DNA of 64,000 nucleotides from a virus, in IMG/VR virus record IMGVR_UViG_3300028563_000011, positions 46,592-110,591 of that record. The stretch is one strand, 5' to 3'. The notes under the pieces are model-generated. The model was not told the origin of the DNA. It searched no databases and saw nothing but the letters and a program-made list of their open reading frames with translations. The position numbers were made by a program, and so were the translations under genes. Below, piece after piece: positions 7,581 to 46,605 of this stretch (the stretch's first letter is position 1; each line of letters opens with the position of its first letter).

Positions 7581-7590
7581 TTCTTTCTCC

Positions 7591-8565
7591 TTAGAAACCG
7601 TACGTAACCGTGCAACGACAGTTAATTCTCTCAGCGGCTGAAGCGGAAGGGTCGCCTGGGTACATTAACTGTTCTCCGGAAGGAGTTTCAAATGGTGTAT
7701 CTATACCTTGAACCGTTTGACCATCCATATCTTGATGGGAATGTCGAGTACGATTACCGGGGGTTGCGTTCCAAGTCTTGGAAACATCGTCGCCACTCAT
7801 TCCGGCAGAGTCTAAAACTTGTTGCATAGCTTCTTGTCTGGCCAAAGATAAAATGGATAAGGACTCGGTCCTAGCTATAGTCTCAGCCCTATAATTCAAC
7901 ATTTGCTCGCGATAACGATCAACCATTCGATCAATTTGATCAGAGGTTAAAGAGTTACCCGTGTCAATAACGCCTTGAACTGTACCATCAAAGCGACGAT
8001 CTCGTAATTGACGAGTTAAAGCGTCAGCAGAGCCTTGTTCTAACAGAGTTCTATAATTATCAACAGCTGAAAGCTGATAGGGAGTTAATCCAATAGAGTC
8101 AACAAGCTGTCTTGCTGTTTGTCTTACACCTTGACCTTGACTTAGCCCATTAGCCAAGATCTGGCGAGTATTTGCAGTTTGGTCAGCTGTAAAATTCTGT
8201 ATAAAATCCAAACGCGAAGATCTCATCAAAGCAGAAGCCCGTTCATTTGTAGAATCAAATGAAACAGTTGGTTCTGCCTTAGCTAAAGTGGGAGTAATAT
8301 GAGCCTTTTCGCCTAATTTATCTCTCAAGTACGAAACTTCTTCATTAGCTATATCGATAAATAACTGAGGTAAGATATTCCCCAAGCGAGTTATAGCGTT
8401 TTCAATTAACTGATTGACTCTCTCAAACTTACCTTGATCCAAAAGGTTGTGTATAGCGTTATGAGTTTGTGGAGACTGAGCCTCATCTACAAATGCTAAA
8501 ATTGTACGTTTGAATTTATTAGTGGCCCAACTGTGTAAATTTATAGTCCTAACCTGATCCGACAT
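7591..8565 (-). CDS. MuF-like minor head protein
   Basis: A 324-residue protein with the phage Mu gpF-like head morphogenesis domain. The C-terminal third shows the family pattern: RAETIARTESLSILSLARQE, then KTWNATPGNRTRHSHQDMDG, then PSASAAERINCRCTV. MuF proteins sit inside the prohead at the portal vertex, a few copies each, and often carry or escort cargo domains. The N-terminal part is helical and unassigned. It follows 8566-9270 with a TGAATG junction and a GGGGG ribosome site. Confidence 0.85.
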   Translation of the reverse strand: MSDQVRTINLHSWATNKFKRTILAFVDEAQSPQTHNAIHNLLDQGKFERVNQLIENAITRLGNILPQLFIDIANEEVSYLRDKLGEKAHITPTLAKAEPTVSFDSTNERASALMRSSRLDFIQNFTADQTANTRQILANGLSQGQGVRQTARQLVDSIGLTPYQLSAVDNYRTLLEQGSADALTRQLRDRRFDGTVQGVIDTGNSLTSDQIDRMVDRYREQMLNYRAETIARTESLSILSLARQEAMQQVLDSAGMSGDDVSKTWNATPGNRTRHSHQDMDGQTVQGIDTPFETPSGEQLMYPGDPSASAAERINCRCTVTYGF

Positions 8566-19481: not shown

Positions 19482-21349
19482 GGCTGTCCTCCTTCTGCAA
19501 CAATCTTAGCTTTGCTACCGTTATTGTCTATAAGCACCCAATGCTTCAAGCTTGGTTTTAGAGTGTCAAAGGTTTGCTCGTTTGTACGTTGGTTAAAAGG
19601 TACCTCAGGAGGTACAAAATAACCAGTTGACATAAATCGAGACATAGCTCTACTTGTAGCGGTTTCAGGTGCTGCGTGAACGTAGTAACCTTTTACATCA
19701 TACCCCGCAGCTTTATACGCAGCAACGCGCTCTTGCGCTTGCTGAGTTACAGCCATTGTAGCGTCATATATTATATTCAAACCAGCACTACGTGCAATAC
19801 GCTCCGCCTGTGCTACTAAATCTCTCGCTTCTGGTAGATAGAGTTCTGCATTAGCGCCATTGTAGCCCGGCATAGATTCTCTAATTGTATCTGCTGATAA
19901 GTAGAAATACTTTGATTTATCGATTCCTTCTAAGGCAGAAGTCTTACCTGAACCTGGGCGACCACCCGTCATAATCAATTCTGGGGCTTTACCAGGGTCT
20001 GGAGTTGCAGCTTGAATAATGTCTTTCCTAAACAAATGCTCCAATAAGTTCTTATGCAAAGCTTGACGTGCTGGAGTATACTGACCATCAGCAGTTGTAT
20101 GCTGTTCTTTTGTTGAAGGGTTAGAAGCAATCAATTCCTTTGCTCGTGCTATTGCCGTTGTTGTATCGCCCGGTATTATTTTCAATACATCATCTAAAGT
20201 AAGTTCTGGCTTTAGATTTTGTCGTAATAAAGCTACAGCAGAACCTTTAGCCGAGTCTGATGTAGCAAAACGTCCTCGCTCATCGTGATGGGGATTGAAT
20301 TTTTCTATAGCAGCTGTAGTGAACCTTCCCAATTTGTCGTGATACGGATTAGCCTTGTTGGTGATTTCTAAATCACCATGACCGTGAGGAATAGGCTTAA
20401 CGTCAGCGTCTTTCGGCTGGTTGGTAAACGACTCCTTTTCTAATTGAGCTTCCTGACCACGACACCAAGCCGACCAAGCATCCCAATCAATATCATTGTC
20501 TTTAGCATAAGCCCGCTCAGTTGGCGTTCCAGCCTCGTTATGGGCCTTCAAGTAAAGTGTCTTCCGCTCTTCTTCGTTAGGCTCACGACCTTCTTTGTCC
20601 TTAAAATCTTGCAACAAAGCATCAATCTTGGTCTTCTCAGCGACCTCATGTTGTAAAAGCATATCAGATACAATAACTTCTTTATCTTTAATTGTAGTCT
20701 TTTCCGGTAAGTTCTTATTCTGATACATTGTCTTGCCATCTTGACTCATGCAAGACATCCAAGGCCCATCATGTTCTAAATCAACCTTAACTCCGCTTGT
20801 ATTAACTTTCTCCATATCTGGAGCATAGAGATCAATTGCTTCTTTTAATTGAGTTAAGATCTCTAAGACAGGATCAAGATCCTTCTTTATCTCAGGCTGT
20901 TTGTTACGCAAAGACTTCAACGCTGCTACAGAACTCTTCAAGATTGTTTTGGTCTGTTCTTTTGGCACACCCATTGTCGTTGACAGATTATGTACAACAT
21001 ATGAAATGTACTCATCAACATCAGGGCCATGAAGAGTATTCCAAGACCCATTCTTTGCGGCGTACCCTACGATGGAAGACAAAGCCAAGGCAACAAGGTC
21101 TTTTACCGACTGTTTTGTCTTTGGATGTTTTGCTACAGAAATTAAGACTTGTCTAGCCGACTTACCATGAATAAATTCAGACGTAGCTTTGAAGCCTACT
21201 TGTAAAAAATTTGAGAAACGCCCCTTAGCGTCATGGTAGGGGTTAGCTTTCTCTATTGGGTTGAAAGCTTTGCTCAAAGCCAAGACACAATACGTCTTAC
21301 CGTTTGACCGGAAAGTATCACCAACTCGTAACTGCGCTAACGAATTCAT
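19478..21349 (-). CDS. GRF-motif polyprotein with C-terminal zeta-toxin-like kinase
   Basis: A 623-residue multi-domain protein. The N-terminus is LRVGDTFRSNGKTYCVLALS, followed by KANPYHDAKGRF and a helical region. Near residue 233 LLQHEVAEKTKIDALL with a downstream KAHNEAGTPTERAYA resembles the metal-binding helices of phage zincin-like domains (His-Glu...Glu), though no HExxH is present. Two further motifs (KANPYHDKLGRF and KFNPHHDERGRF) precede a P-loop kinase near residue 460: GGRPGSGKTSALEG, YLSADTIRESMPGY and NIIYDATMAV. This is the zeta-toxin/NAD or UDP-sugar kinase pattern. It overlaps the portal stop (ATGA). A capsid-loaded effector is inferred. Confidence 0.7.
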   Translation of the reverse strand: MNSLAQLRVGDTFRSNGKTYCVLALSKAFNPIEKANPYHDAKGRFSNFLQVGFKATSEFIHGKSARQVLISVAKHPKTKQSVKDLVALALSSIVGYAAKNGSWNTLHGPDVDEYISYVVHNLSTTMGVPKEQTKTILKSSVAALKSLRNKQPEIKKDLDPVLEILTQLKEAIDLYAPDMEKVNTSGVKVDLEHDGPWMSCMSQDGKTMYQNKNLPEKTTIKDKEVIVSDMLLQHEVAEKTKIDALLQDFKDKEGREPNEEERKTLYLKAHNEAGTPTERAYAKDNDIDWDAWSAWCRGQEAQLEKESFTNQPKDADVKPIPHGHGDLEITNKANPYHDKLGRFTTAAIEKFNPHHDERGRFATSDSAKGSAVALLRQNLKPELTLDDVLKIIPGDTTTAIARAKELIASNPSTKEQHTTADGQYTPARQALHKNLLEHLFRKDIIQAATPDPGKAPELIMTGGRPGSGKTSALEGIDKSKYFYLSADTIRESMPGYNGANAELYLPEARDLVAQAERIARSAGLNIIYDATMAVTQQAQERVAAYKAAGYDVKGYYVHAAPETATSRAMSRFMSTGYFVPPEVPFNQRTNEQTFDTLKPSLKHWVLIDNNGSKAKIVAEGGQP

Positions 21350-24300
21350 TCGAGTATCTCTTGAGCGATGATCTCTAAACCTTCACCATCCTCAATAAAA
21401 CGTGTGATCTTAGCTATTGTTTCTTGAGGTAAGGCTTGTTCATCATTTTCACGCTGATCCATATCGTCAAGCATTCCAATTAAGTAATCTAAAATAGCAA
21501 CAACAGGATCGGACGCATCGACTTGAACTTTCTCTATCTGACCCTTACGATAAGCCTTTAAGAGATTTAGGAAAACCTTGACCGTAGCTCGCGCTTGACC
21601 AATTGTGATATCTCTTTGCTGAGCCTCTCCCAATACCGTACGCTCAATTAGGGAATTGACTTGCCTTTGAATAGGAGCAGAGAAAGGCACACCTTGGTCT
21701 TTTGTTGCTTGGTTTAACAGATGAGAAGCAAGTTGTGCAACTCCCTCACGACCCAATACTGAAGCGTGATCTTTCAAGACTTCAGCTGAAGAACTTGTTC
21801 TAAACCATTTGGCAACCTCAAAGGCTCTATCCACAAGGCTCAATCCAGCTACAGCTGCTGTTACGCTTAGAGCATGCTTCAGTGTCAAAGAACGTGTGGC
21901 CGCCTTTTGGGCGTACTCTTGATCCATAGCCAACGTTGCGGCATGTCTAGACGCAGTGATAGGACGGCGGGCACCAGCAACATCTGTAAAGCGTCCTCTT
22001 CCGTCATGGTAGGGATTAGCTTTCTCAACAGAACCCTGCTTTTTAGGAATTAAAACCATAAATAAAGTCACAGAATCAGACAGCCCTTTTTCTATACGCT
22101 CATTGAAAACTTTTGTTGTAGGCTCTTTAGCAATACCAACAATCCACTCTGGCTTAACTTCTCCTTTAAATTTGAAGTCTGAATTCTTCCCAGTAAAACC
22201 CTCAGTAACATCTGCACTAGCTCGCTTATCAAATTCCTCTTTTGGTATCTTTATTTCCAAAATTACAGGTTCTGACTTATTGATTTCAGCAGCTAAATCT
22301 GCAAACCCTGCTGCTTGTTCCCAGTCAAAAGACACGTAAACATAACCTTTAGTATCCCTTATTAGCTCCTGCTTCTCAGCCTTAGACATCCCTTTCATAA
22401 TAAAACGATCAGCACCTTTTCCTCCTTGAGGTTTTAATCCCTCTCGCATAATTTGACTTAGTGTCTTTTCATTAGTCCCATGAAAAACAGTAGTAGCCCA
22501 TTTCCCAGACTTATCCCGGGGTTCATCTGGGTTGAAGGCTTTAGATAAGTCTTCATCAGACCCCATATTGTCAAGGTCTTCTTGCAATGCCTGAAGTATT
22601 TCCAAGATTGGGTCAGTTTCATCAGCTTTCTTAATCTCAGACTCACGCAACTTTTGGAATACCTGTATAGCTAAATGCAAAGCTGCACGAGCATGTGCTA
22701 ATGTAACATAATCCAAAGCACCAGGCTTGGGCTGACCTTCAGGAGTACTCCTACTAAAGTGATGGACAGTAGAATAGATAAAATTCCTCACATCTTGATG
22801 TAAGCCTGGGTCTTGGCTACCTAACTTATGTTCAATTGCTGTACCAGCAATAAAAGTCAAGATATGCCCAATTGCTTCCTTTGCTATAAATAAAGATTCA
22901 TTCTTAACTGTTTGTTTAACAGGTTCTGACGATAACCATTCTTTTGTACGTAATACCTTACCTTTCAACCCAGGAACATTTGCAAAGGCTGAAGGCTGAG
23001 GTGGGGTTTCCTGAGGGTGTTCATGTATTCCAGGAGAGCTTGACGCACTACCGAAACCAGCTGTAAACCGACCGTGACTATCTCTAGGTTTATACCCACG
23101 ATTGGCTTTAGTGAATTCCTCGTCCCAACTCTCAACATCATCAAGGTCAAAGAACTTCTTGACGTTCTTTGGGTTTGTAACATTCTGATTCCCAGCTGAA
23201 CCTTTACCCCCAGACTTTGCTGGAGGCTGAGAACCGTTAACTGAAGGTTGGGTTCCACCGTTACCACCAGGTTGACCTCCACCCCCGCCAGGTTGTCCCG
23301 GGGTTTGGCCAGCAAACTTAGCTCTAGCTGTTGCTTCAGCCATCTTTACTGGGTCTACTGGCTTGCCATCTGGACCAAACTTCATTCCAGCCTTAGCTTG
23401 TTGCTGCTGCTGATACATATCCATATCAGGCTCAGGCTGACGCTCAATACCCAACAAATCACGTACATCATCAATCGCTGGATCATCGGGACGTAAGACA
23501 GCACCAGCTGTAGCCATTTGCGCTAATGAAGCTGTAATCTCTTGAACAGTACGGAAAGCCAACTCAGAGTGCTTTAACTTAGGACGTAATTCATCTTTAA
23601 TACCATTCAAGTCACAAAGAGGTTCAATAACATCCTTATTACAAGCATCAGTAATTTCATCCAGGGTACCATTAACAACAAGATAGAAATTCTGAGACTT
23701 GTCGGATGCTAGAGCTCTAGAACCACCACCTTTGTCTCCAAGCAATAAGTTCTCAACGCCAAGAATACGCGCCATTTCTAGAATAGTACGATCAATAGCT
23801 TGACCAATTTCAGCAAAGCCAACTGAACCACCTTGCAGGAGTTCCACACCAAACTGCATTGCACTTGAAACTGAAGGACCAGAATCAGTCTCAACAATGT
23901 ACGGGGCTGAGTCCATAACGATTGAAGTATCGTTAGACTTGGATTGCATCTTAACGAAGTCTTCAACAGCTTGAGTAATTCCAGTAGCATCTTCTTTGGT
24001 TAATTGACCCGCTTGTACAGCTTTACGTATTGCAGTGTAAGGCACCCGTCCAATGGGGATACCACGTAAGTCACGTTCAAAGCCTCGACCTTCTAGCTCG
24101 AAATATTTCTTCAAGCGTTCCCAAGGCTCGATAAGATGACGATACAAACCAATTCCTTCTGGGGAATCAGTTAAAGTATCGTCTACCATGTACATAACTT
24201 TGGAGCGTGGGATATAAAGCAAAGCCCCACCTATAGGAGCACGTTGCCACACTCCAACCACAGAACCGTTATCGTCAAGTTCCCAACGCTCAATTGTATG

Positions 24301-24816
24301 CTGAGGCCGAGCTTCAATATCATCAAAGCCCACTTTGCCATCATCGCGTTTCTTAGCTGTCCATTCCTGGATACCAAAACCGTGGAAACGGTACATAGCA
24401 GAACGGCGTACAATTCTACGCCAAGGTGTAGCTGTGTCTTGAATCACATCCTCAAATAATTCTGCAATTTGTTTGGCTGCAGGAGAATCATCTGCTGGCT
24501 CAACTTTCCATTTAGCATAAGAGATCAAGTTCAACATGTAGCGCGTACCAGCAGCTACAATGGAAGTGTTAACCATAAGGTCAGTAAAGGTAATCCACTT
24601 TTGTGGGCCAACAAGCCGAGCATCGCGCTCACGTTGTAGAATTAAACCGCCATAAACGGCGGTTCCTGACACTCCTTGTTCGGAGAAGGGAGTAGCCTTA
24701 GGTAACGGCCCGGTTCTAAACAAATTAGTAATTCTAGAACCAAAACCAGCAAGACGTGCTCCATAAGGAACTTTAGCCACAGGCTCTCTCCTCTTTTTTA
24801 GAGCCAAAGTGGCCAT
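21346..24816 (-). CDS. Portal protein with C-terminal ADP-ribosyltransferase-like extension
   Basis: A 1156-residue protein. Residues 1 to about 470 are a phage portal: FTDLMVNTSIVAAGTRYML, DTATPWRRIVRRSAMYRFHG, PEGIGLYRHLIEPWERLKKY and GDKGGGSRALASDKSQNF. A Gln/Gly/Pro-rich linker follows. Three GRF motifs mark later modules near residues 580 (PRDSHGRF), 767 (EPRDKSGKW) and 934 (ANPYHDGRGRF). Between the last two lies an ART-like domain: VFHGTNEKTLSQIMREGLKP with H779, and YVYVSFDWEQAAGFA. Portals are normally 400-700 residues. The extension probably projects into the head. The start partly overlaps a homing endonuclease gene. Confidence 0.85.
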   Translation of the reverse strand: MATLALKKRREPVAKVPYGARLAGFGSRITNLFRTGPLPKATPFSEQGVSGTAVYGGLILQRERDARLVGPQKWITFTDLMVNTSIVAAGTRYMLNLISYAKWKVEPADDSPAAKQIAELFEDVIQDTATPWRRIVRRSAMYRFHGFGIQEWTAKKRDDGKVGFDDIEARPQHTIERWELDDNGSVVGVWQRAPIGGALLYIPRSKVMYMVDDTLTDSPEGIGLYRHLIEPWERLKKYFELEGRGFERDLRGIPIGRVPYTAIRKAVQAGQLTKEDATGITQAVEDFVKMQSKSNDTSIVMDSAPYIVETDSGPSVSSAMQFGVELLQGGSVGFAEIGQAIDRTILEMARILGVENLLLGDKGGGSRALASDKSQNFYLVVNGTLDEITDACNKDVIEPLCDLNGIKDELRPKLKHSELAFRTVQEITASLAQMATAGAVLRPDDPAIDDVRDLLGIERQPEPDMDMYQQQQQAKAGMKFGPDGKPVDPVKMAEATARAKFAGQTPGQPGGGGGQPGGNGGTQPSVNGSQPPAKSGGKGSAGNQNVTNPKNVKKFFDLDDVESWDEEFTKANRGYKPRDSHGRFTAGFGSASSSPGIHEHPQETPPQPSAFANVPGLKGKVLRTKEWLSSEPVKQTVKNESLFIAKEAIGHILTFIAGTAIEHKLGSQDPGLHQDVRNFIYSTVHHFSRSTPEGQPKPGALDYVTLAHARAALHLAIQVFQKLRESEIKKADETDPILEILQALQEDLDNMGSDEDLSKAFNPDEPRDKSGKWATTVFHGTNEKTLSQIMREGLKPQGGKGADRFIMKGMSKAEKQELIRDTKGYVYVSFDWEQAAGFADLAAEINKSEPVILEIKIPKEEFDKRASADVTEGFTGKNSDFKFKGEVKPEWIVGIAKEPTTKVFNERIEKGLSDSVTLFMVLIPKKQGSVEKANPYHDGRGRFTDVAGARRPITASRHAATLAMDQEYAQKAATRSLTLKHALSVTAAVAGLSLVDRAFEVAKWFRTSSSAEVLKDHASVLGREGVAQLASHLLNQATKDQGVPFSAPIQRQVNSLIERTVLGEAQQRDITIGQARATVKVFLNLLKAYRKGQIEKVQVDASDPVVAILDYLIGMLDDMDQRENDEQALPQETIAKITRFIEDGEGLEIIAQEILE

Positions 24817-25579
24817 CCGGCCCCCTACGTGAGGCTAATAATTCCCGCATTGCTTGGGTCTTGTTATGTATATTTAAGTGGGCAACTAACTTTGCTTTAT
24901 GCTCCAAAGATTTAGGCTTGTTTTTAAGCTTGTTTGCGTATTTATTCCCAATATGTATATCAGTACATATTCGTTTGTAGTTATTTCTTTCTTCAACAGA
25001 AAGACTAGCTCTAAATCTTTTTAGCCCCATACTAATATTTGTCTTATGTTCTTCTGAAAGTTTACGTCCTTTTGTACGCGTATTCCCCACCAAGGAATCT
25101 GAAATTGCCTTACGCCAATTTACCAATTCTTCTTTAGTCTTATTAGACTTCGCTAATCTGAGTGCGGTCTTATGAGCATCACTCAACTTTCTACCTTTAG
25201 TATAACCCCCATTTTGTTGATTATATCTATTTCTCTCTGAGAATTTTTGTTTTGCTTCTTCAGAATGCTTAAACCCAGTAACAGATTTATCTCCACCATT
25301 CGTCAAATTACAAAGAGTGCCTGTACCTAGATTTATTCTACCGTATTTCTTTACTAATTCCCGCTCTAGTGCCAAAGCTTGAGTCTCAGTTAGTAATGTC
25401 TTCACCATCCTTACTTCAATTGATAAACCCAAATTTTTTAGTTTGGCTACTATTCGCTTATGTAAATTACTTCTACCTCCAAAGTTGGAGGCCCGGCTAC
25501 CCTTGCCTTTACCCACGTAAAAAACTTGTCCGGTATCTGGTCGAACATGCTCATACACATAAAAGTATAATGGTTCCAT
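24773..25579 (-). CDS. GIY-YIG homing endonuclease with NUMOD3 repeats
   Basis: A 268-residue free-standing mobile endonuclease. Residues 5-95 form the GIY-YIG nuclease (YFYVYEHVR, VFYVGKGKGSRA, then catalytic-type region LERELVKKYGRINLG). The rest has DNA-binding NUMOD3 repeats: GFKHSEEAKQKFSERN, GRKLSDAHKTALRLAK and GRKLSEEHKTNISMGL. Its last 44 bases overlap the portal start in another frame. Upstream lies a remnant of a portal 5' end (25586-25690). The ribosome site AAGGAG directly abuts the ATG, an odd spacing implying weak expression. Confidence 0.85.
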   Translation of the reverse strand: MEPLYFYVYEHVRPDTGQVFYVGKGKGSRASNFGGRSNLHKRIVAKLKNLGLSIEVRMVKTLLTETQALALERELVKKYGRINLGTGTLCNLTNGGDKSVTGFKHSEEAKQKFSERNRYNQQNGGYTKGRKLSDAHKTALRLAKSNKTKEELVNWRKAISDSLVGNTRTKGRKLSEEHKTNISMGLKRFRASLSVEERNNYKRICTDIHIGNKYANKLKNKPKSLEHKAKLVAHLNIHNKTQAMRELLASRRGPDGHFGSKKEERACG

Positions 25580-27066: not shown

Positions 27067-28881
27067 TCACTTATCCGGGTGTTTAGAATCATACACCTCC
27101 CCGTCCTTGAAGACTTTAGGACCCATTCCAAGCATGAACGTAGGTTGGACTACCGGCCAGTAATTCATAACAATTGAATCTGCCAGGTTAGGTGATACCG
27201 TACCATCTGGTGATTTGTCAACTAAAAGTTTTAACCTAGAGTTCTTAGACGCAGTAGCTTGTGACAACTCTTTCTCAATCTTACGTAAAAGAGGTAGCTT
27301 AGAGTCAAGTGAGATTAACGTGTCTGGATCGTGTTTAACACCTTGTGTAACAACTTGATATGTACGAAGGAAACGGTTGCGCAATTCCCACCAAGCTTGT
27401 GCTTTTAGGTTGGCATAGAAATCTTTGTTCTTAGGTGAGTCTAGGTCACCTTCATTGACTCTTGCATTAGGGTATAACACAGATGAACCAGCATTCCATG
27501 CAATAAACTGTAATCCTTTTGGTATAATTAGCTTACCTTCACTATCTTTTTCTTCCATTAAGCGATTTGTCTCAGCTTTAACAGCGGCACCAACTCCAAT
27601 ACAATCGTACTGAAGGGATAAGGCTCCTAAACCTAAGACAGCTGCTACAGCACGTCTAGCTGTTACGCCGGGGTCTCTAGCACCCCACTCTTCCGCAAAG
27701 CGTAGGACTACCCCCTGGCGCTTAGATAGGGCATTACGGTCACCACCTTCATCAGCTACGTCTAAAGCTGCACCCCAGGGCCCACCTTCGTGCCAACCTT
27801 CAAGAGAAGTTACATTGGCATGTAAGTGAGCGTCAATTGACGCTTTCACCCACTCATTAGGTATAATGACACCAGCTAATGCTGCAGTATAGTTACGATC
27901 TACTTCTTGAGCTAAAAGATGTAGTGTACCTTTGTCTTCTGCGTTTCTTCTACGTTCAGCGTACCACTCTTCTGTTTTATCAGGGTGATCCCTCCAATCC
28001 ATAACAAGAACACGTGTTTTGCCTCTCGGTATTACAGCACCAGGGTACCAATCAATACCACCCTCACGAGTTCTATGGAATAAGTTACCAGGCCCATTAA
28101 CAGAAGACATATCAATTGGGACACGAGTAGTATCCCCTAAAGACGCTTCAATCAACTCTGGATGCTCGTAATGGCTACTCTCATCTTTCATGTAGAGAAG
28201 TGTGCGCCCACCTCTACCAATATTATCCCCAATTTCTCCTTTTATAACTGATCCGTTTGAAGGGTTAATACAACGCATAAAGGTAAGATGATCACGCGGT
28301 TCTAATCCTTGAGGTAAAAACACTTCTGGTAAACCGCGAATCATCATCCTAATCTTTTCAAAGATTGAGTCGGGATCACCCAGCTTATCCACTTTTGGTT
28401 GGGTAGCTGAGCCCCAACCAATTTGAGAGCTAGGCCAAAATAACCAAAGCCAAACTGAGAAAGCAACTCCAATCCAAGTTGCTCCCATATCTCTCGACTT
28501 TTCAATTAAGCCCGGTTGCTCATCTTTCAAACAAGAAAGAAGGAACTGTAACATTTCTACTTGCTTAGGAAACATAATAAATGGAAATCGAGTAAGCTTA
28601 CCTTCTTTACCAACATTACGTGGCTCATATAAATCAACCCAATGATTAATCCACTCTAATGAGTGTTCCTTGTAGTAAGCTTTAGCTGATTCGATAAGTT
28701 CAGGTCTAAACTCAAACTTATCCAACTGGTTTTTACGCCAAACTAAAACGCTGTCGTAATTAGGCGGCCAGTTTTCTCTTGAACAAGGCTGTGGTGGTTT
28801 AAGTTTAGTCGCACTTGCTCTTAACAGACGTTCAACACGTACTGTACGTAAAGCCTCAGATACGTCTATTAAGCCAGACAC
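27067..28881 (-). CDS. terL: Terminase large subunit
   Basis: A 604-residue packaging motor. The ATPase half has a Walker A-like EKSRDMGATWIGVAF near residue 125 and Walker B RTLLYMKDESSHYE near residue 228. The C-terminal nuclease has the first acidic residue in AALDVADEGGDRNAL near residue 369 and later LADSIVMNYWPV with the last Asp. It uses ATP to fill the prohead through the portal and cuts the concatemer. The start overlaps the end of 28869-29438 by 13 bases. The probable small subunit is at 31388-31891. Confidence 0.9.
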   Translation of the reverse strand: MSGLIDVSEALRTVRVERLLRASATKLKPPQPCSRENWPPNYDSVLVWRKNQLDKFEFRPELIESAKAYYKEHSLEWINHWVDLYEPRNVGKEGKLTRFPFIMFPKQVEMLQFLLSCLKDEQPGLIEKSRDMGATWIGVAFSVWLWLFWPSSQIGWGSATQPKVDKLGDPDSIFEKIRMMIRGLPEVFLPQGLEPRDHLTFMRCINPSNGSVIKGEIGDNIGRGGRTLLYMKDESSHYEHPELIEASLGDTTRVPIDMSSVNGPGNLFHRTREGGIDWYPGAVIPRGKTRVLVMDWRDHPDKTEEWYAERRRNAEDKGTLHLLAQEVDRNYTAALAGVIIPNEWVKASIDAHLHANVTSLEGWHEGGPWGAALDVADEGGDRNALSKRQGVVLRFAEEWGARDPGVTARRAVAAVLGLGALSLQYDCIGVGAAVKAETNRLMEEKDSEGKLIIPKGLQFIAWNAGSSVLYPNARVNEGDLDSPKNKDFYANLKAQAWWELRNRFLRTYQVVTQGVKHDPDTLISLDSKLPLLRKIEKELSQATASKNSRLKLLVDKSPDGTVSPNLADSIVMNYWPVVQPTFMLGMGPKVFKDGEVYDSKHPDK

Positions 28882-29438
28882 GAGTACCTACCTTTGATCA
28901 ACTTAAGTTGTTTTTGTAGTCTTTTAATAGTGCTTGTACGTACTGTAGCTAATGAATCATAATACCCTACATCCCTTGGCTTACCGTAATGACGAGCACC
29001 ACTAACCCGGTCTCCAGATATTGTCTCTGCTTTAGGGTAAAGACGTTTGAGTTGTCTAGCTATATCTCGAACACTACTAGAGCCAAGACCCAAAGGTTTA
29101 TCAAAAGCTGATACTGCACTTTCATTTTCTGGACTAGACTCAATACTCAAATCCTTACCTACCCATTCTACGTACAAATGCTTAGGATCTGCAACATTCA
29201 AAACAACTGAACCAACCCTTTGGTTAAATACATCCCTAATATGATAATGATCGTATTGTTCTCCTGGCTGTACAATTTCTTTATGACTAAATACAAGGTA
29301 AGGTTTAGAACCAGAAGAGGACCACTTCCCAGATTTATCTCTAGGCTCTTCCGGGTTGAAAGCTTTGTTCATTCCCTGCTGGACCTTTACCAGGTCCAGT
29401 TGAAGGTTCATGATCTGTAGTTGTGTTTGAAGGCCCAC
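28869..29438 (-). CDS. GRF-motif protein with possible acetyltransferase-like fold
   Basis: A 189-residue protein. The N-terminal leader MGLQTQLQIMNLQLDLVKVQ is followed by NKAFNPEEPRDKSGKW, identical in plan to the motif that introduces the ART-like domain of the portal. The rest has strands and a helix: VVLNVADPKHLYVEWVG, then LGLGSSSVRDIARQLKRLYP. The latter resembles the acetyl-CoA loop and helix of GNAT enzymes, but the match is weak. Likely another packaged cargo module. First gene after the long intergenic region. Confidence 0.5.
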   Translation of the reverse strand: MGLQTQLQIMNLQLDLVKVQQGMNKAFNPEEPRDKSGKWSSSGSKPYLVFSHKEIVQPGEQYDHYHIRDVFNQRVGSVVLNVADPKHLYVEWVGKDLSIESSPENESAVSAFDKPLGLGSSSVRDIARQLKRLYPKAETISGDRVSGARHYGKPRDVGYYDSLATVRTSTIKRLQKQLKLIKGRYSCLA

Positions 29439-29779: not shown

Positions 29780-29891
29780 GGAAACATATTCCAATCAAAA
29801 CTACCATCCACGAAAAGTATTCTACCAACTTTAATCTTTGATTCTCACTCATACGCTCTCAAATTCTTATAGAAGGCCAAGGGCGAGTTTT

Positions 29892-29927
29892 ACAGGTCCG
29901 CCGCTAGGGGTGTGGAGGGCAACCCGT
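29892..29927 (-). ncRNA. Hairpin with the same loop motif as the tRNA-Leu leader
   Basis: On the minus strand ACGGGT pairs with ACCTGT (one G-U) around a loop that begins TGCCCTCCACACCCC. The tRNA-Leu leader has ACGGT/ACCGT around TGGCCTCCAAACCCC. Loop conserved, stem changed: this suggests a common structured element. The function is unknown. Confidence 0.4.
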
Positions 29928-30011
29928 TTTAACTTTCCTACGACGATCCTTGAGCCTTACAGACTTAGTCCATCAAGGATGGAAGCTCGATGTCACCTAA
30001 AAAGTGCGGGC

Positions 30012-30119
30012 TTATCCTATGCCGGCCCCCGCTTGCACCAAGTTGCAACCAATATTCCAGATCACAACCAGACCTCCGCTCCACTTTGAGTTCCGGAACT
30101 CATTGGTAGGGGCCACCAT
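30012..30119 (-). CDS. Possible small hydrophobic protein
   Basis: A 35-codon frame starting MVAPTNEFRNSKWSGGLVVI and ending in a hydrophobic glycine-rich stretch (NLVQAGAGIG). It begins 9 bases after the stop of the gene above it. The only ribosome-site candidate (TAGAG) is too close to the ATG. The region also folds into RNA hairpins, so it may be non-coding. Confidence 0.3.
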   Translation of the reverse strand: MVAPTNEFRNSKWSGGLVVIWNIGCNLVQAGAGIG

Positions 30120-30127
30120 CTCTAAAG

Positions 30128-30524: not shown

Positions 30525-30601
30525 TGGTGCTGCTAGATAGATTCGAACTACCAACCGACTGCTTACAAGGCAGCTGCTCTACCAATTGGAGCTATAGCAG
30601 C
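30525..30601 (-). tRNA. tRNA-Thr (anticodon UGU), CCA encoded
   Basis: A clean cloverleaf on the minus strand: acceptor GCTGCTA/TAGCAGC, D-arm GCTC/GAGC with GG in the loop, anticodon stem GCTGC/GCAGT with loop CTTGTAA (anticodon UGU, reads ACA), T-loop TTCGAAT, A73 and an encoded CCA. Length 77 with CCA. It follows structured element 1 by 11 bases on the transcript. Confidence 0.95.
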
Positions 30602-30612
30602 AAAGAGTGTAA

Positions 30613-30710
30613 GACTGATAAAGCCTGCCTCGACAGCTTTTTGATCGAAGTGGCTAGATAAACTGTTTGACCGCGAGCGAGGACGGTCCAGGCCACTTAC
30701 TTTATCAGTC
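30613..30710 (-). ncRNA. Structured element 1 (paired with element 2)
   Basis: P1 is an 11-bp perfect closing stem (30613-30623 with 30700-30710). P2 is 7 bp (30648-30654 with 30692-30698). P3 is 30669-30673 with 30684-30688, with a 10-base loop that on the minus strand reads TCCTCGCTCG. The same plan with the identical P3 loop and changed but still paired stems is found at 31220-31405. Lies between the GRF-motif gene 30764-31204 and tRNA-Thr. Strand is assumed from the transcription direction. Confidence 0.65.
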
Positions 30711-30718
30711 CAACCTCA

Positions 30719-30754
30719 CTTCATCCAAAGGCGTACACCTTACTGTGGATGAAG
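30719..30754 (-). terminator. Hairpin after the 30764-31204 gene
   Basis: CTTCATCCA pairs with TGGATGAAG (9 bp) with an inner AAGG/CCTT pair, just past the stop of 30764-31204. No T tract follows on the minus strand, so it is either a processing or stabilising hairpin or a factor-dependent terminator. Confidence 0.35.
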
Positions 30755-30763
30755 CGAAGGATA

Positions 30764-31204
30764 CTACTTCTCAAAGACTTTGGGTACGTGACCTTCACGT
30801 ATCTTAGCCTTTATCTGTGATGCTAGACGCGTAGCAAGTTGCACATCATAATCTGGCCTACTCGCCCAGTACTGCATCTTATCACTTGCATGAGCAAGCT
30901 CAGTATGAGCACGTTTAGCCTTTGCAGGGTCTTCAGCTGTCTTTGCTAAGTGACTCAAGTATACATACGCTGCAAAGTGCTTAGCCCAATTTGCAGTTGG
31001 GTTAGGTTGCCTGCCTGACCAAGGGACTTTCTTACCACCCCCATACATCTGCTTATCAGAATAAACAATCCCCATACCAGGAGAAGAACTAAATCGACCA
31101 AATTTGTCATGATAAGGATCAGCTTTAGCCAAACAACCAAACAATGCTACTGACTCTCGTAAAGAGTCAATTCTCTGGGCTAGGACTTGAGTTGTATTCA
31201 CCAT
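30764..31204 (-). CDS. GRF-motif small protein between the two RNA elements
   Basis: A 146-residue protein. The leader VLAQRIDSLRESVALFG is followed by CLAKADPYHDKFGRFSSSPG, the recurrent motif, then a helical domain (WAKHFAAYVYLSHLAKTAED, AKRAHTELAHASDKMQYWA). It is the smallest free-standing member of the family. The AAGG site overlaps the end of structured element 2, which might influence its translation. No known domain. Confidence 0.55.
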   Translation of the reverse strand: MVNTTQVLAQRIDSLRESVALFGCLAKADPYHDKFGRFSSSPGMGIVYSDKQMYGGGKKVPWSGRQPNPTANWAKHFAAYVYLSHLAKTAEDPAKAKRAHTELAHASDKMQYWASRPDYDVQLATRLASQIKAKIREGHVPKVFEK

Positions 31205-31219
31205 CCTTAGTCCTTTAGG

Positions 31220-31405
31220 GAGTTAGAGGAAGACTAACAGCTGGCCCCGACCAGTTATGCCAAGTGTCAAGCTATATTCTTCAGGCCTTTCGGTGTTCCC
31301 AGTATACGTACCAAGATTGTACATAGTAACCGAGCCGGTTATCTCCCAAAGCCAACAGCGAGCGAGGACTGTCCAAGACACTTACTTTTAGTCTTCCCCT
31401 AACTC
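31220..31405 (-). ncRNA. Structured element 2
   Basis: P1 pairs 31220-31236 with 31389-31405 (16 of 17 pairs), P2 pairs 31262-31268 with 31377-31383, and P3 pairs 31355-31358 with 31369-31372. The P3 loop is the same 10 bases as in element 1. Relative to element 1, P2 GGC/GCC became GTC/GAC and P3 CCG/CGG became CAG/CTG: compensatory changes. The P1 arm lies within the last codons of the terminase small subunit gene. This copy has a longer insertion between P2 and P3. Confidence 0.65.
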
Positions 31406-31891
31406 TTCTACATACGCCGCTGCATCAATATCAAGTTCATTAACATGTCCATTTGTATACCCACTAGACTCACCTGATGCAATCTTACCCAGTGCCTTCT
31501 CCATAGTCAATAACTCAGTCTCTGACAAACCCTTCAAAGCCTCAGGAGGTAATGCTAGAACCTGCACTGTACCTTTAAGAGTAGTAGCTGTAAGCTTTGG
31601 TGTGAAACAATTAAGCAATCTATCAGCAGCCCACTTCTTATCATCCCAAGAAACAGGATACTCCCATTTATTTCTACCACTACCACCAGTAGCCCTATTT
31701 GCTCTAAGCACCATCAACATAAAATCCAGTGGCATAATACCACCATTTGCTATATGTGCCTCTGCTGCTTTTTCTCGTAATTGCACAGGCATTTTGTTCT
31801 TAGCACCCTGTGGCCTACCCTGTGTATGATTACCACCATTAAAATGACGATTATCAACAGTACCCTCTTTCGTGATACGTACACGCTTCAT
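31388..31891 (-). CDS. Probable terminase small subunit
   Basis: A 167-residue protein. It opens with basic residues and TQGRPQGAKNKMPVQLREK, the GRPxGxxNK start common in phage small terminase or DNA-binding proteins, then PLDFMLMVLRANRA, and KKWAADRLLNCFTPKLTATT, a pattern seen in small-terminase-like families. It would recognise viral DNA and hand it to TerL at 27067-28881. The structured element 2 at its 3' end is a natural candidate for a packaging-linked site. Assignment by pattern and synteny. Confidence 0.55.
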   Translation of the reverse strand: MKRVRITKEGTVDNRHFNGGNHTQGRPQGAKNKMPVQLREKAAEAHIANGGIMPLDFMLMVLRANRATGGSGRNKWEYPVSWDDKKWAADRLLNCFTPKLTATTLKGTVQVLALPPEALKGLSETELLTMEKALGKIASGESSGYTNGHVNELDIDAAAYVEELGED

Positions 31892-34400: not shown

Positions 34401-37400
34401 TTATCCACACTTGGAATCCCCACAATTAATACATACCCAACAACTCGATTGCTTAATTACGGTAAATCCTCCGCATTTAGTACATTTGGTTCCATGCAAA
34501 TTGGTTGAATCAGTTACTTGAAACTTTCCTTCAAGATTTTCTGGTAACTTAAAGACATCCTGTTCTGGAGGTATTAACTCAAGCCAACGGAAGTGTTCTT
34601 CAATCGTAAAGCCTACAGCAGCGACTAGAGAGTTAACATATTTTTGTTTATACCAAGTCCCCCCTCTTGCTGAACAAACTTGCTTCAACTCCTCAATGAT
34701 GAAAGAAGAATCCACTTCTCGCCTAAAGATTGCAGTTATGAGTAAAGATAAAGCTTTTATCCATTCCTCGTGTTCTGAGTTTTTAGAGTTAATGAAGATC
34801 TCAAAGGGACGACGTTGGCCCTTTTGATCTATATAGTCATTGATGTTTATATACAATGCGTTATCAGACAAGGGCCATTTGATCCGATAACGTCTCCCAT
34901 CCAAAACTTCCTGCATGGGGACTTTTTCAAGTGGAACTATAGGAGCCTCTTTCTTCTCGGAAAGAACCTCTCCACGCTCAGACCTGGGGTCTGGGCGGTA
35001 CGTTGTACAACCCTTCAACCCCAACTTGTAAGCCTTAGTGTAGACTTCCTTAAAATCCTCGAAAGACATCTCGGTAGGACAATTGATAGTTTTAGAGATT
35101 GCGGAGTCTACAAATTCTTGAGCCGCAGCTTGCATCTCTAAATGCTGATCAACAGTAAGGTCTTTGGCAGTTACAAAGTATTCTGGTACCTCAATAGAAC
35201 CAATAGGGGAGTGAGGGGAAGTCACTTCATGATACTGAAGATACCCATAATCGTAAACCTCATAAGTCTTCTTAGTCCCATCTGGACCTAAAACCTTACG
35301 CTCGTAATTGTGTAAGAAAACAGGCTCAATACCTGAAGACACATTCCCCGCTAACAAAGATATTGTACCTGTTGGCGCTATTGACATCAATAGCGCATTG
35401 CGAATACCATACTTTTGGATATCTCCAATAATGTCTTTTGGTAAAGTTTGTACAAACTTACCTAGTGTGTACTTGATCCTATCAAATAACGGGAACGGCC
35501 CCCGCTCTTTTGCTAGTTCAATAGAAGCTCTATAAACAGCATAACACAACTCCTTTGTTATCTTCTTGGTTAATTGTATTGCAGTTGTAGAACCATAAGC
35601 AACACGAAGTTGCTGTAAAGCATTTGCTAATCCAGTATAACCAATACCAAGCCTACGCTTGTTTAACGCTTCTTCACGCTGAGCCTCTGTAGGGAAACGG
35701 GTTTCATCTAAAACATTATCTAAAAAGCGAACAAGGCTTGTTGCTGCAGTACGTAAAGCATCATAATCAAACCTAGGACTACTTGTAAATGGGTCCTTGA
35801 CCATAACTGCTAAGTTAACATGTCCTAAATTACAGTCACCATTTGCCGGAAGCATTTGCTCCCCACAATTCGAGATTTTTATACCACTAAGTGCTTGATT
35901 TTCATACCTTTCTACAAAGTTAGAACTTGTTATCACTGCATAGTTATGAAACTCGTCTACCGTCAGGTTATAGACATCCCCATAGCCGCAAGGTTGTACT
36001 AAAACGACCTTATGATTAGACCCAGAACCGGCTCTAAATTCTCCTGTTCTTCGTGACAAAGCAACCTTTGCTGTATGTTCTGCAGAATGCTTCCGCCCTT
36101 TCATCTTCAAACTGTGTTTTCTACCAGTCTCTAATTTTTCCTCTAGAGAACGGTTAGCACTAGCTTGAGATGCTAAAACCATAGCACATTTACGTGAACA
36201 ACACTTACGCTTTCCAGCCCCTGTCTCTAATGATTTAGCTCTTACTACAAACGCCTTGCCACAACCCTTACACACCTTTTCAAAGTTAAAGGCTAACTTT
36301 GACATAGAAATGCTCAAAGTTTCTCTGTGCTCTTCGGTCCAACCTTCTTTCACTGATTGTTTCCACCCCTCAAAATAATCAGGGTCTTGATTACGCTCAA
36401 TAGTTTTATCCCCAATCTTACGCTTAGTTTCAACTGAATGTTGCTTACCCCACATTCCATTCGATTCACCAGAAATTGAGGCACTCATATTATTACGATA
36501 AACTTGCTTTTGTTCTTCAGTTAACCCCTGCCACCAAAAACGCATGGGATTATTATCGCCTAGCTTATGATCCCTATTATGATCTTCAGCCAATTTAACT
36601 TCAATGTTATCCCAATCATTATTTTGATGATTACCGTCTACGTGATGGCAATGATATTGACCTCGCTTACGGCCCCAATCAAATTTACGACCGTACTTTG
36701 CTTCAGCAATTAAGTGGTATTCAGGCGTCTTAACCCCTCCTCCAAAACGAGTAACACTAACATCACCCCACTTGGTTAAAATTTGATCGTGTCTAAATAG
36801 ACTATCACCCTCTCTCAAATCCTTAGCCTCAACCTCTCCTCCATCCCGTAGCGGAAATTTATGATCAGGAGTAACCTTAAGACAACTACTATCATCTAAT
36901 ACTACCTTAACAAGCTCTGCATTCTTCCGAGTCAACCTAGGATTACGCCCCCACCTAACAATAGTTTCGCCACTTTGGGGATCAACAGCAAACACAGGAA
37001 TGTCTTTACCCTCATCAGCTAATTGTTGAATTGTAACTGAACCCCGACCTGCTACTGCAATCAAAGTCTCTCCTACTACACAAGGATTACAGCAATGAAT
37101 ATGCTCACAATAGTAAAGATTATTCCATGTATTTACTCTATCGATAAAAAGAATACCAGGCTCAGCATAAATATAAGTATTCTCAATAATGAGATTCCAT
37201 AACTCTCTGGCCTTTAACCGCTTATAAACGTAATGTGTCTGACCATCACGCTCATAAACGTCAACATGATTATTATCCGCTCTTGGAACCGTAAAATACA
37301 AGTCCCAATCTTTATCATTCTCAAGGGCTTCCATAAAAGCATCAGTAACAAGTACTGAGATATTAAAATTTGTCAACTTTCCTTTCTCACGCTTTGCTAA

Positions 37401-37934
37401 TACAAAATCAACAACATCTGGGTGCCAAATAGCAAGTGTCCCCATCATAGCTCCACGACGATGTCCTGCAGACATAATCGTATTAGAACTATGATGCCAC
37501 ATATCCATAAAAGGAAGAACACCTGAGGATTGTGAACTTGTACGTTTTACAACGGCTCCATTAGGACGAATAGTGGAAAAATCCATACCAATTCCACCCC
37601 CCATCTGCAAAGTAATAGCTGCAACTTTTAGGCTATCCATAATACCCAAACCAAGGCGGTCTGGCTCGGTATCCATAGAATCTTGAATATCAGGGGAGAC
37701 AAAACAATTAATTAGCGTAACACGTTTATCTGTTCCTGCTCCGGCATGTATACGCCCAGCAGGAATAATAGTACGAGCTCGCAAAGCTTCCAAAGCCTGA
37801 ATCCTAGCATTGGTATTGGGGTCTTTAGAATAAATACAATTAACAATACGCTGAAACGTATCCTCAATATTAGCCTCATCCCCATAGCGGTACTTCTCGC
37901 TCCAAGTATCAAGGGTTATCTGCTGCTTAGCCAT
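34401..37934 (-). CDS. nrdJ: Class II ribonucleoside-diphosphate/triphosphate reductase with an intein
   Basis: A 1177-residue precursor of an adenosylcobalamin-type reductase, which makes deoxynucleotides from ribonucleotides. Extein motifs: TLINCFVSPDIQDSMD (first active-site Cys), MGGGIGMDFSTIRPNG, HCCNPC, then CGEQMLPANGDCNLGHVN after the intein, GYTGLANALQQL and MSIAPTGTISLLAG. The C-terminus is a zinc-ribbon-like CTKCGGF...CWVCINCGDSKCG. No separate NrdB is seen, and none is needed for class II. The intein interrupts residues 285-689 at the most conserved active-site loop. Vitamin B12 must come from the host. Confidence 0.9.
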   Translation of the reverse strand: MAKQQITLDTWSEKYRYGDEANIEDTFQRIVNCIYSKDPNTNARIQALEALRARTIIPAGRIHAGAGTDKRVTLINCFVSPDIQDSMDTEPDRLGLGIMDSLKVAAITLQMGGGIGMDFSTIRPNGAVVKRTSSQSSGVLPFMDMWHHSSNTIMSAGHRRGAMMGTLAIWHPDVVDFVLAKREKGKLTNFNISVLVTDAFMEALENDKDWDLYFTVPRADNNHVDVYERDGQTHYVYKRLKARELWNLIIENTYIYAEPGILFIDRVNTWNNLYYCEHIHCCNPCVVGETLIAVAGRGSVTIQQLADEGKDIPVFAVDPQSGETIVRWGRNPRLTRKNAELVKVVLDDSSCLKVTPDHKFPLRDGGEVEAKDLREGDSLFRHDQILTKWGDVSVTRFGGGVKTPEYHLIAEAKYGRKFDWGRKRGQYHCHHVDGNHQNNDWDNIEVKLAEDHNRDHKLGDNNPMRFWWQGLTEEQKQVYRNNMSASISGESNGMWGKQHSVETKRKIGDKTIERNQDPDYFEGWKQSVKEGWTEEHRETLSISMSKLAFNFEKVCKGCGKAFVVRAKSLETGAGKRKCCSRKCAMVLASQASANRSLEEKLETGRKHSLKMKGRKHSAEHTAKVALSRRTGEFRAGSGSNHKVVLVQPCGYGDVYNLTVDEFHNYAVITSSNFVERYENQALSGIKISNCGEQMLPANGDCNLGHVNLAVMVKDPFTSSPRFDYDALRTAATSLVRFLDNVLDETRFPTEAQREEALNKRRLGIGYTGLANALQQLRVAYGSTTAIQLTKKITKELCYAVYRASIELAKERGPFPLFDRIKYTLGKFVQTLPKDIIGDIQKYGIRNALLMSIAPTGTISLLAGNVSSGIEPVFLHNYERKVLGPDGTKKTYEVYDYGYLQYHEVTSPHSPIGSIEVPEYFVTAKDLTVDQHLEMQAAAQEFVDSAISKTINCPTEMSFEDFKEVYTKAYKLGLKGCTTYRPDPRSERGEVLSEKKEAPIVPLEKVPMQEVLDGRRYRIKWPLSDNALYININDYIDQKGQRRPFEIFINSKNSEHEEWIKALSLLITAIFRREVDSSFIIEELKQVCSARGGTWYKQKYVNSLVAAVGFTIEEHFRWLELIPPEQDVFKLPENLEGKFQVTDSTNLHGTKCTKCGGFTVIKQSSCWVCINCGDSKCG
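35868..37082 (-). mobile_element. Intein with HNH homing endonuclease inside nrdJ
   Basis: About 405 residues from C285 to N689 of the precursor. Block A is CVVGETLIAVAG, block B LKVTPDHKFPLRDG, block F VYNLTVDEFHNYAVITSS, block G SGIKISN before Cys+1. An HNH nuclease reads YHCHHVDGNHQNNDWDNIEV. NUMOD3-like DNA-binding motifs GKQHSVETKRKIGDK and GRKHSAEHTAKVALS and zinc-type CKGCGKAF/CCSRKC follow. The penultimate residue is Ser instead of the usual His. It splices itself out so the joined exteins read NP-CGEQMLP. Confidence 0.9.
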
Positions 37935-38044: not shown

Positions 38045-38551
38045 TTAAGTAGCCTCAAGCTGATCGTCTGCAATGAGGACTTTAGTCTTCCGACCTAAAA
38101 TATCTAGTAATACTTGTTGGCGCTCTTTATCGGCTTGACCATAATAAATCCCTTGCCTATTAACAAAGGCTCCGTCAGTTATTCTGACACTTTGACCTGG
38201 GATAAACCTAGGCTTTGGTAATACTACCAAGCCTTGCTCATCCTCTTTGGATCGAAGTTGTTGGATAACATCATCAGGTAGTATTGCTGGTTTATCTCCA
38301 TTCAATACTACCCCTATAACTCCATAAGTATTCATCAAAAACTTCCATTGCTCATCCGTCTGGACAAACAAATAACTAGTAAATAAAGGCCGGGAAACTG
38401 CAAGGGTTCTCCCACCTTTCGTAACTATAGAACTAATGCTTGGAAGATAAGGTATACGACCTTGACGCGCTACATTTTCTGCAGCCCACTTCTCACGATT
38501 AGGCTTAGTCCGAACGACTAACCACTGAAGTGTTTGATTTCCGTCGCCCAT
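38045..38551 (-). CDS. NusG/RfaH-like transcription elongation factor
   Basis: A 168-residue protein with the two-domain NusG plan. NGN domain: WLVVRTKPNREKWAAENVAR, RPLFTSYLFVQTDEQ and GVIGVVLNGDKPAILPDDVI. KOW domain near the C-terminus: FIPGQSVRITDGAFVNRQGI. Such a protein binds RNA polymerase and reduces pausing or termination. A phage copy would act as a phage-specific antiterminator. It sits next to replication genes rather than next to ribosomal genes. Confidence 0.85.
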   Translation of the reverse strand: MGDGNQTLQWLVVRTKPNREKWAAENVARQGRIPYLPSISSIVTKGGRTLAVSRPLFTSYLFVQTDEQWKFLMNTYGVIGVVLNGDKPAILPDDVIQQLRSKEDEQGLVVLPKPRFIPGQSVRITDGAFVNRQGIYYGQADKERQQVLLDILGRKTKVLIADDQLEAT

Positions 38552-45565: not shown

Positions 45566-46605
45566 TACTCTTCATACGCGCCAAGGATATAGATCTCAGA
45601 ACTCTTACCAGTCAAAATCAAAGCAGTTTTACCTATAGCAAAACTAGTAGAACACCTTGACAGTTTAGTCAGCTGCTTCAACCCCAAAGCAATCTGTTCT
45701 GTTCCCCCTTCTTTTGCTAATACCAACTTTTCGTTCAAAGAACCTTGAGCCAATTTACCAGTAACACTTAATTCCTTCTTGTTTACAGAAAGCTTAACAT
45801 AATTCTCTTTAGGCCCAGCCAAAATATTAGCGCGGGATAAAGCCTCCCCAAGAAGTTCTGGAATATCAACAAAGTTGTCTGTATCAGAAGCGTGCGTGTC
45901 CAAGACATTGGGCAATTCGACAACATTCTCATTATCTAATAAGGTTGAACAAACCTGAATATCTCCTAAATTAGCTACAATCATGTCTTCAGTAAAGACA
46001 ACTTCATGACCTTCCTTTCCCAAGGAAATAAGTTGAGCAACAAATTTATGAGGCAATATCATCTTGTGAAGTTCAGGAGCAAACTTACCATCCACTTCAA
46101 CCGAGGCCAAAGCCTTGGAGTCAGTAGAATACAACCCTATAAAGTCTCGACTAGGGAACAACACTACACCGTAGTGTTCCGAACGCTTGGGTTGCTCAGC
46201 CTCCAATACACTAACAATCTTCAACCCCTCTATAAACTCTTTCGACAGATTAAACGAGAAAGACCCAGCTTTCTGGTCTGTAAATCCCCAAGGATTACTT
46301 GACTCAGCCATAATAGGGATAGAAGTCTTAGAGCGCCCCATTTGAACAACAAGTTCACCCTTAACTACATCCAAAAAGATCTCTTTAAGTGTTGAACTAT
46401 TAACCAAAGAAAGTAAGGTACTACCTAAAACCCCACCCTTAATATCTCCTTCAAAGGGTAACCTAATCCCTAAGCCACCATCATAAGCGTAAAGATATTT
46501 ACCATCAAACCAAAAGTGTTTAAGCTCAGGTATAGCCCCACCAGAAGAGAGAGCTGGCTTTAAGCTCTTGAGAGTTTCAGAGAAAGTACTGCGATCTACG
46601 TTCAT
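45565..46605 (-). CDS. DNA sliding clamp (DnaN-like)
   Basis: A 346-residue protein that has the three-domain length of bacterial beta clamps: TFSETLKSLKPALSSGGAIP at the start, a central region with FSFNLSKEFIEGLKIV and YSTDSKALASVEV, and the end TGKSSEIYILGAYEE. It encircles DNA and tethers the polymerase; gene order with polymerase and clamp loader fits. Recognition is by overall pattern; no short diagnostic motif. Confidence 0.7.
   Translation of the reverse strand: MNVDRSTFSETLKSLKPALSSGGAIPELKHFWFDGKYLYAYDGGLGIRLPFEGDIKGGVLGSTLLSLVNSSTLKEIFLDVVKGELVVQMGRSKTSIPIMAESSNPWGFTDQKAGSFSFNLSKEFIEGLKIVSVLEAEQPKRSEHYGVVLFPSRDFIGLYSTDSKALASVEVDGKFAPELHKMILPHKFVAQLISLGKEGHEVVFTEDMIVANLGDIQVCSTLLDNENVVELPNVLDTHASDTDNFVDIPELLGEALSRANILAGPKENYVKLSVNKKELSVTGKLAQGSLNEKLVLAKEGGTEQIALGLKQLTKLSRCSTSFAIGKTALILTGKSSEIYILGAYEE

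Follow-up and report, generated by a model that had tools for sequence, protein, structure and literature searches.

The window analysed here is a stretch of 64,000 nucleotides from a virus (positions 46,592 to 110,591 of IMG/VR record IMGVR_UViG_3300028563_000011), which carries on its minus strand two copies, A and B, of a structured RNA element. The features of this locus are as follows, with the loops of hairpins in brackets.

27067–28881 (−): large terminase gene, terL (phrog_2, E = 8e-14)
30525–30601 (−): tRNA-Thr gene, 11 nt downstream of A
30613–30710 (−): element A, whole RNA domain (78.2 bits, E = 7.6e-14 with covariance model R1, which includes A)
30700–30710 (−): A, P1 5′ strand, GACUGAUAAAG, pairing with 30613–30623 (11 bp)
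30613–30623 (−): A, P1 3′ strand, CUUUAUCAGUC
30692–30698 (−): A, P2 5′ strand, AAGUGGC, pairing with 30648–30654
30648–30654 (−): A, P2 3′ strand, GCCACUU
30669–30688 (−): A, P3 hairpin, GACCG[UCCUCGCUCG]CGGUC, with CCUCG at 30678–30682 kissing the P4 loop
30625–30636 (−): A, P4 hairpin, CUG[UCGAGG]CAG, with CGAGG at 30628–30632 pairing with CCUCG of the P3 loop
30764–31204 (−): GRF-motif gene between B and A, without a family match
31220–31405 (−): element B, divergent second copy with an insertion of about 83 nt (31.5 bits with R1)
31388–31405 (−): B, P1 5′ strand, GAGUUAGGGGAAGACUAA, overlapping the final codons and the stop codon (31388–31390) of the probable terS
31220–31237 (−): B, P1 3′ strand, UUAGUCUUCCUCUAACUC
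31377–31383 (−): B, P2 5′ strand, AAGUGUC, pairing with 31262–31268
31262–31268 (−): B, P2 3′ strand, GACACUU
31354–31373 (−): B, P3 hairpin, GACAG[UCCUCGCUCG]CUGUU, with CCUCG at 31363–31367
31271–31353 (−): B, insertion of about 83 nt in the P3-to-P2 linker
31241–31254 (−): B, P4 hairpin, CUGG[UCGGGG]CCAG, with CGGGG at 31245–31249 pairing with CCUCG
31388–31891 (−): probable small terminase gene (terS), directly upstream of B, without a confident family match

Helices P1, P2 and P3 and the identical P3 loop, all described by the first-pass annotation of this DNA, are present on the minus strand in both elements. Its count of 11 bp for P1 of A is retained, while the 16 of 17 pairs given for B were recounted as 18 pairs, of which one is G-U. 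Missing from that annotation were hairpin P4 (30636–30625 in A, 31254–31241 in B) and the loop-loop pairing of P4 with P3. The core TGGACNGTCCTCGCTCGCNGT, common to A and B, occurs exactly twice in the window, where 0.01 occurrences are expected by chance. The fold of A is better than those of all 200 shuffled sequences (z = −3.6); that of B is not outstanding (z = −1.35), probably because of its insertion, for which no homologue was found among the carrier loci compared. Covariance model R1, built from A and 11 homologues with B left out, recovered B at E = 6e-4.

The GRF-motif gene does stand between the two copies, which had earlier been described as bracketing it, but it is absent from every other carrier locus compared and is judged to be separate from the element. 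Its short motif, (D/R)xxGRF/RDKSGKW, is also found in 28869–29438 and is repeated in the long C-terminal extension of a portal-like protein (21346–24816, −), which may include an ADP-ribosyltransferase-like or phosphotransferase-like segment. As read from the translation, a GIY-YIG-like endonuclease gene (24773–25579, −) runs about 40 nt into the start of this portal-like gene (1156 aa). The ribonucleotide reductase gene (34401–37934, −) is apparently split by an intein that carries an HNH-like segment, spanning CVVGETLIA... to ...KISNCGEQ as judged from the translation alone. Between the block of tRNA-Thr and small open reading frames and the terL block lie about 250 nt without convincing genes (29870–30122, −), which contain a GCGGG/CCCGC hairpin and a T-run; the fold of this region is nothing unusual against shuffles (z = +0.5), and no homologue of it was found among the carrier loci compared.

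Assembly of the A/B RNA family

Pattern and covariance-model searches gathered 19 distinct copies of the element from 18 genomes. Of these, 14 are virus records dissimilar from one another, and the remaining four genomes come from a single alphaproteobacterial family, to which a Microvirga MAG belongs. A scan of IMG/VR with the exact core matched six contigs, five of which are true members, and extra members were obtained with further patterns and one tolerant loop pattern; pattern hits L001, L009, L010, L012, L013, L016 and L022, together with most of the later new pattern hits, were discarded as chance or coding matches. A scan of bacterial genomes yielded one Microvirga MAG contig containing the element. 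Members score 71–97 bits with R1, which detected three more, diverged copies in 397 genomes of the MAG's family, and none beyond the MAG in samples of about 400 genomes from each of its class, order and phylum, where the filters are stricter at this size. One clear copy is present in each carrier searched whole, and two are present only in the window virus. Alignment A2 comprises the 19 distinct copies from the 18 genomes and leaves out contig L019, which repeats the copy of L018.

At the gathering score, Rfam 15 identifies only tRNAs in the window, and on the window region up to E = 5 it returns only tRNA and chance hits; the element likewise has no Rfam 15 hit in L137–L140 and other carrier loci. 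No homologue was detected by blastn with two family members against annotated phages, where three weak hits are chance matches of 18–19 nt, or with one family member against plasmids, both being searches that divergent copies could escape. No description of A/B RNA was found in open-licence papers. A/B RNA is thus a new RNA family, with no Rfam family, no blastn match in annotated phages or plasmids and no published description found.

A three-way junction with kissing loops

The RNA domain of about 80 nt is composed of the closing helix P1 (five core pairs, up to 18 pairs in B), an arm formed by P2 (seven pairs) and P3 (five pairs and a 10-nt loop), and the short hairpin P4 (three to four pairs and a 6-nt loop). 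Covariation establishes that P1, the P2–P3 arm and P4 form a three-way junction in which the loops of P3 and P4 kiss, and intramolecular and intermolecular kissing look alike to covariation. No unpaired bases lie between P1 and P2 or between P4 and P1, and P2 and P4 are joined by at least five bases, usually containing AA.

Double (compensatory) changes occur in A2 at 20 of the 25 pairs, the loop-loop contact included, with four of the five core pairs of P1 and all seven pairs of P2 doubly changed. Paired cells make up 97.7% of A2, against 82% in shuffles and 30–44% in slid structures, where the shuffles ignore relatedness, the slid controls account for it, and the carriers are mutually dissimilar. 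None of 500 shuffles matches the covariation of A2. The kissing helix alone has double changes at four of five pairs, a number reached by none of the 500 shuffles, and its pairs lie outside the nested structure of the model to which A2 was fitted. The first-pass annotation had proposed homologous RNA-like elements with compensatory base changes, to be checked by searching for further covarying homologues with covariance models; the 19 copies found and the 20 doubly changed pairs strongly support this proposal.

The kissing contact, of 5–6 bp, is CCUCG/CGAGG in most copies. It is replaced by CCCCG/CGGGG in L054 and L141, by CCUCG/CGGGG (one G-U) in L015 and B, by CAACG/CGUUG in L139, by UCGGGG/CCCCGA with the register shifted by one in L140, and by UCUCG/CGUGA (one U-U mismatch) in L138. 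The sequences of the P3 and P4 loops are therefore free to change so long as their mutual pairing is kept. The idea that the UCCUC loop serves as an antisense or anti-Shine-Dalgarno sequence was rejected, since the loop turns into CAACG or CGGGG along with its partner. The P3-to-P2 linker is a tolerant site, being about 10–17 nt in most copies, about 83 nt longer in B, absent in L138 and deleted in G587. The shortest copy, L142 (G587, 7581–7645), is without the P3-P2 linker, and its kissing helix contains a U-U mismatch; most genes on its contig, which is possibly a decaying prophage remnant, look cellular, and a partial match resembling tRNA or tmRNA lies near the copy.

Wobble cells comprise 20 G-U and four A-C, and because G-U outnumber A-C, it is the coding-strand RNA that is under selection, not the DNA or the opposite strand. 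A/B RNA is almost certainly a real, conserved family at the RNA level, and the earlier suggestion of a phage ncRNA is supported.

Genomic position and possible function

In every copy examined, the adjacent gene is co-directional with the element, and most copies lie upstream of terminase genes. The element is located directly before terS in G541 (a bacterial locus), directly after terS in G553 and in the window (where terS is only probable), before terL in G005, and 1–3.5 kb upstream of terS/terL in G002, G006, G007, G009, G010, G012 and G013. Exceptions are G008, where it follows terL and a head-tail adaptor gene; G014, where it follows the major head gene; G003, where a dATP triphosphohydrolase gene lies downstream in a region without a terminase; and G004, where one small co-directional gene is followed by opposing genes. 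A further exception is L141, whose copy lies within the reading frame (627–1565) of an Erf-like annealing gene, in its N-terminal non-conserved region, so that the RNA can coexist with translation. The copies of G013, G006, G010 and G553 are near the start of a co-directional block, and those of G008 and G014 are mid-operon. A candidate start codon follows P1 at a distance of 0–37 nt in about 14 of the 19 copies. A tRNA-Met gene lies about 230 nt before the G541 copy, and the G009 copy is followed by two T-arm-like sequences (weak evidence, with no tRNA called there) and then by a strong terminator, an intrinsic-terminator-like hairpin 175 nt after the element and before the terminase genes. 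Strong terminators within 200 nt downstream were found only in G009 and G587, and terminators downstream of the copies showed no clear enrichment over those upstream, on which grounds a stand-alone gene with its own terminator was rejected. A promoter search around the copies gave no usable signal.

An all-against-all comparison of the proteins of eight long carriers (46–110 kb) revealed no protein family common to more than three of them. A shared phage protein partner is accordingly rejected, and A/B RNA probably acts either unaided or together with factors of the host. The phage NusG paralogue encoded in the window (38045–38551, −) was dropped as a partner, as NusG-like proteins are encoded by 5 of 15 carriers and by 10 of 43 controls, a difference that is not significant. 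This NusG/RfaH-like protein matches PF02357 (E = 6.8e-16), and such paralogues are also present in 10 of 34 viruses with a terminase related to that of the window. Since the longer carriers have almost no proteins in common and the bacteria found to carry the element all come from a single alphaproteobacterial family, we infer that a host machine is a likelier partner than a phage protein; contact with such a machine best explains a shape-dependent domain which accepts varied complementary loops and has no evident phage partner. The term mobile RNA, also offered by the first-pass annotation, may apply in a loose sense, since the element occurs in phages with hardly any proteins in common, but no mobility machinery of its own was seen.

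By analogy with the put RNA of phage HK022, the A/B RNA domain, embedded in coding-strand phage transcripts, may act in cis on host RNA polymerase during transcription (probability roughly 0.3) and would let the enzyme resist pauses or terminators in phage operons that are long and mostly late. Consistent with such an action are the co-directional copies, mostly upstream of terminase genes and several near block starts, the terminator-like hairpin between the element and the terminase genes of G009, and the lack of any protein family beyond three of the eight long carriers. Against it count the terminators not clearly enriched downstream and the promoter search without usable signal, the single small gene before opposing genes in G004, the L141 copy inside the Erf-like gene, the mid-operon copies of G008 and G014, and the NusG paralogues, which are not enriched in carriers. 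The put RNAs of HK022 (putL and putR) confer processive antitermination without a dedicated phage protein (PMC9378689). Both put and A/B RNA are phage-borne and structured, of about 70 and 80 nt, respectively, and put occurs in two copies per phage genome (PMC9378689), as A/B RNA does in the window virus. They are also alike in having no dedicated phage protein, to judge for A/B RNA from the eight long carriers. However, put lies downstream of early promoters and is built from two stem-loops with an RNA triplex, an arrangement not seen in A/B RNA; the latter, unlike put, combines a closing helix with a three-way junction and kissing loops and is mostly near late genes, with several copies mid-operon.

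Ranked about equal with this put-like action in cis, and just as tentative, is a stable small RNA acting in trans, cut out at its P1 ends from polycistronic phage transcripts, which would bind or sequester a host factor or assist a late step. Stable RNAs derived from the tRNA cluster of phage T4 are comparable. This reading agrees with a self-contained domain closed by a P1 of varying length (5–18 bp), with a genome position that varies among carriers and with the lack of a phage protein partner among the eight long carriers; the tRNA-Thr gene directly after A, the tRNA-Met gene before the G541 copy and the T-arm-like sequences and terminator downstream of the G009 copy suggest that tRNA processing enzymes could free the RNA. 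Most copies, however, are without a terminator signal of their own, and the co-directionality of all copies with their neighbours is unneeded for action in trans. Somewhat less probably, the element sits just before genes and influences in cis how the mRNA is processed, how stable it is or how it is translated, for instance as an exonuclease block or by insulating the next ribosome-binding site. Compact pseudoknotted three-way junctions are able to block exonucleases, as in viral xrRNAs, and the candidate start codons shortly after P1 and the overlap of B's P1 with the upstream stop codon point the same way; the downstream genes, on the other hand, are unrelated, short gaps are usual in compact phage genomes, and in A a tRNA gene comes next. 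There is a small chance, of about one in ten, that the explanation is other than any of those named here.

The pRNA of phi29 (RF00044) has a three-way junction, paired ends and two mutually complementary, sequence-variable loops, and A/B RNA is alike in all three. A packaging or capsid-associated RNA ring on the prohead beyond the phi29 group, with P3 and P4 loops kissing between neighbouring molecules, would fit the covariation as well as intramolecular pairing does, and many copies are near terminase genes. It is nonetheless improbable. Carrier terminases match phrog_2, 9, 38 and 979 (large subunit) and phrog_51 and 1206 (small subunit), which are ordinary TerS/TerL proteins of differing families with no phi29-type packaging ATPase in their place, and none of 80 relatives of the window's TerL (51–60% identical) carries the element according to both models, with filters off for six of the 80. 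A/B RNA further differs from phi29 pRNA in having no match to RF00044, which Rfam includes, in its host group and in its variable genomic position, some copies lying outside the packaging region; and according to a recent review pRNA is found only in phi29 and its relatives among Bacillus phages (PMC11476376). Most improbable of all is a DNA-level packaging site (pac or cos) beside the terminase genes: copies do adjoin terS, on one side or the other, in the window, G541 and G553, but the 20 G-U against four A-C cells and the covarying loop-loop contact indicate RNA, and the element is not bound to one terminase type. A terminase-linked packaging signal was rejected on the 0 of 80 TerL relatives, and the pac element proposed in the first-pass annotation is weakened by the same result, by the differing terminase families and by the several copies away from terminase genes.

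Two further systems share features with A/B RNA. The LoaP leader hairpin, the partner of a NusG paralogue, and the EAR element are likewise structured and located in or before long operons, but the five carriers encoding a NusG-like protein are not significantly above controls, and no Rfam match was found. Junctions of the purine riboswitch type are similar in architecture only, with a three-way junction and kissing loops; A/B RNA differs in having no Rfam match, unrelated downstream genes and no expression platform seen.

Phages with almost no genes in common have retained this small RNA fold, which must serve a need that they share; contact with a conserved machine of the host is the likeliest. 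Were put-like action demonstrated, A/B RNA would represent a further form of RNA-only antitermination, outside the lambdoid phages. The other outcomes, if true, would add a new member to the stable RNAs of phages or a new RNA to phage assembly, and in the case of the RNA ring, late assembly would involve an RNA component in phages with conventional terminases too.
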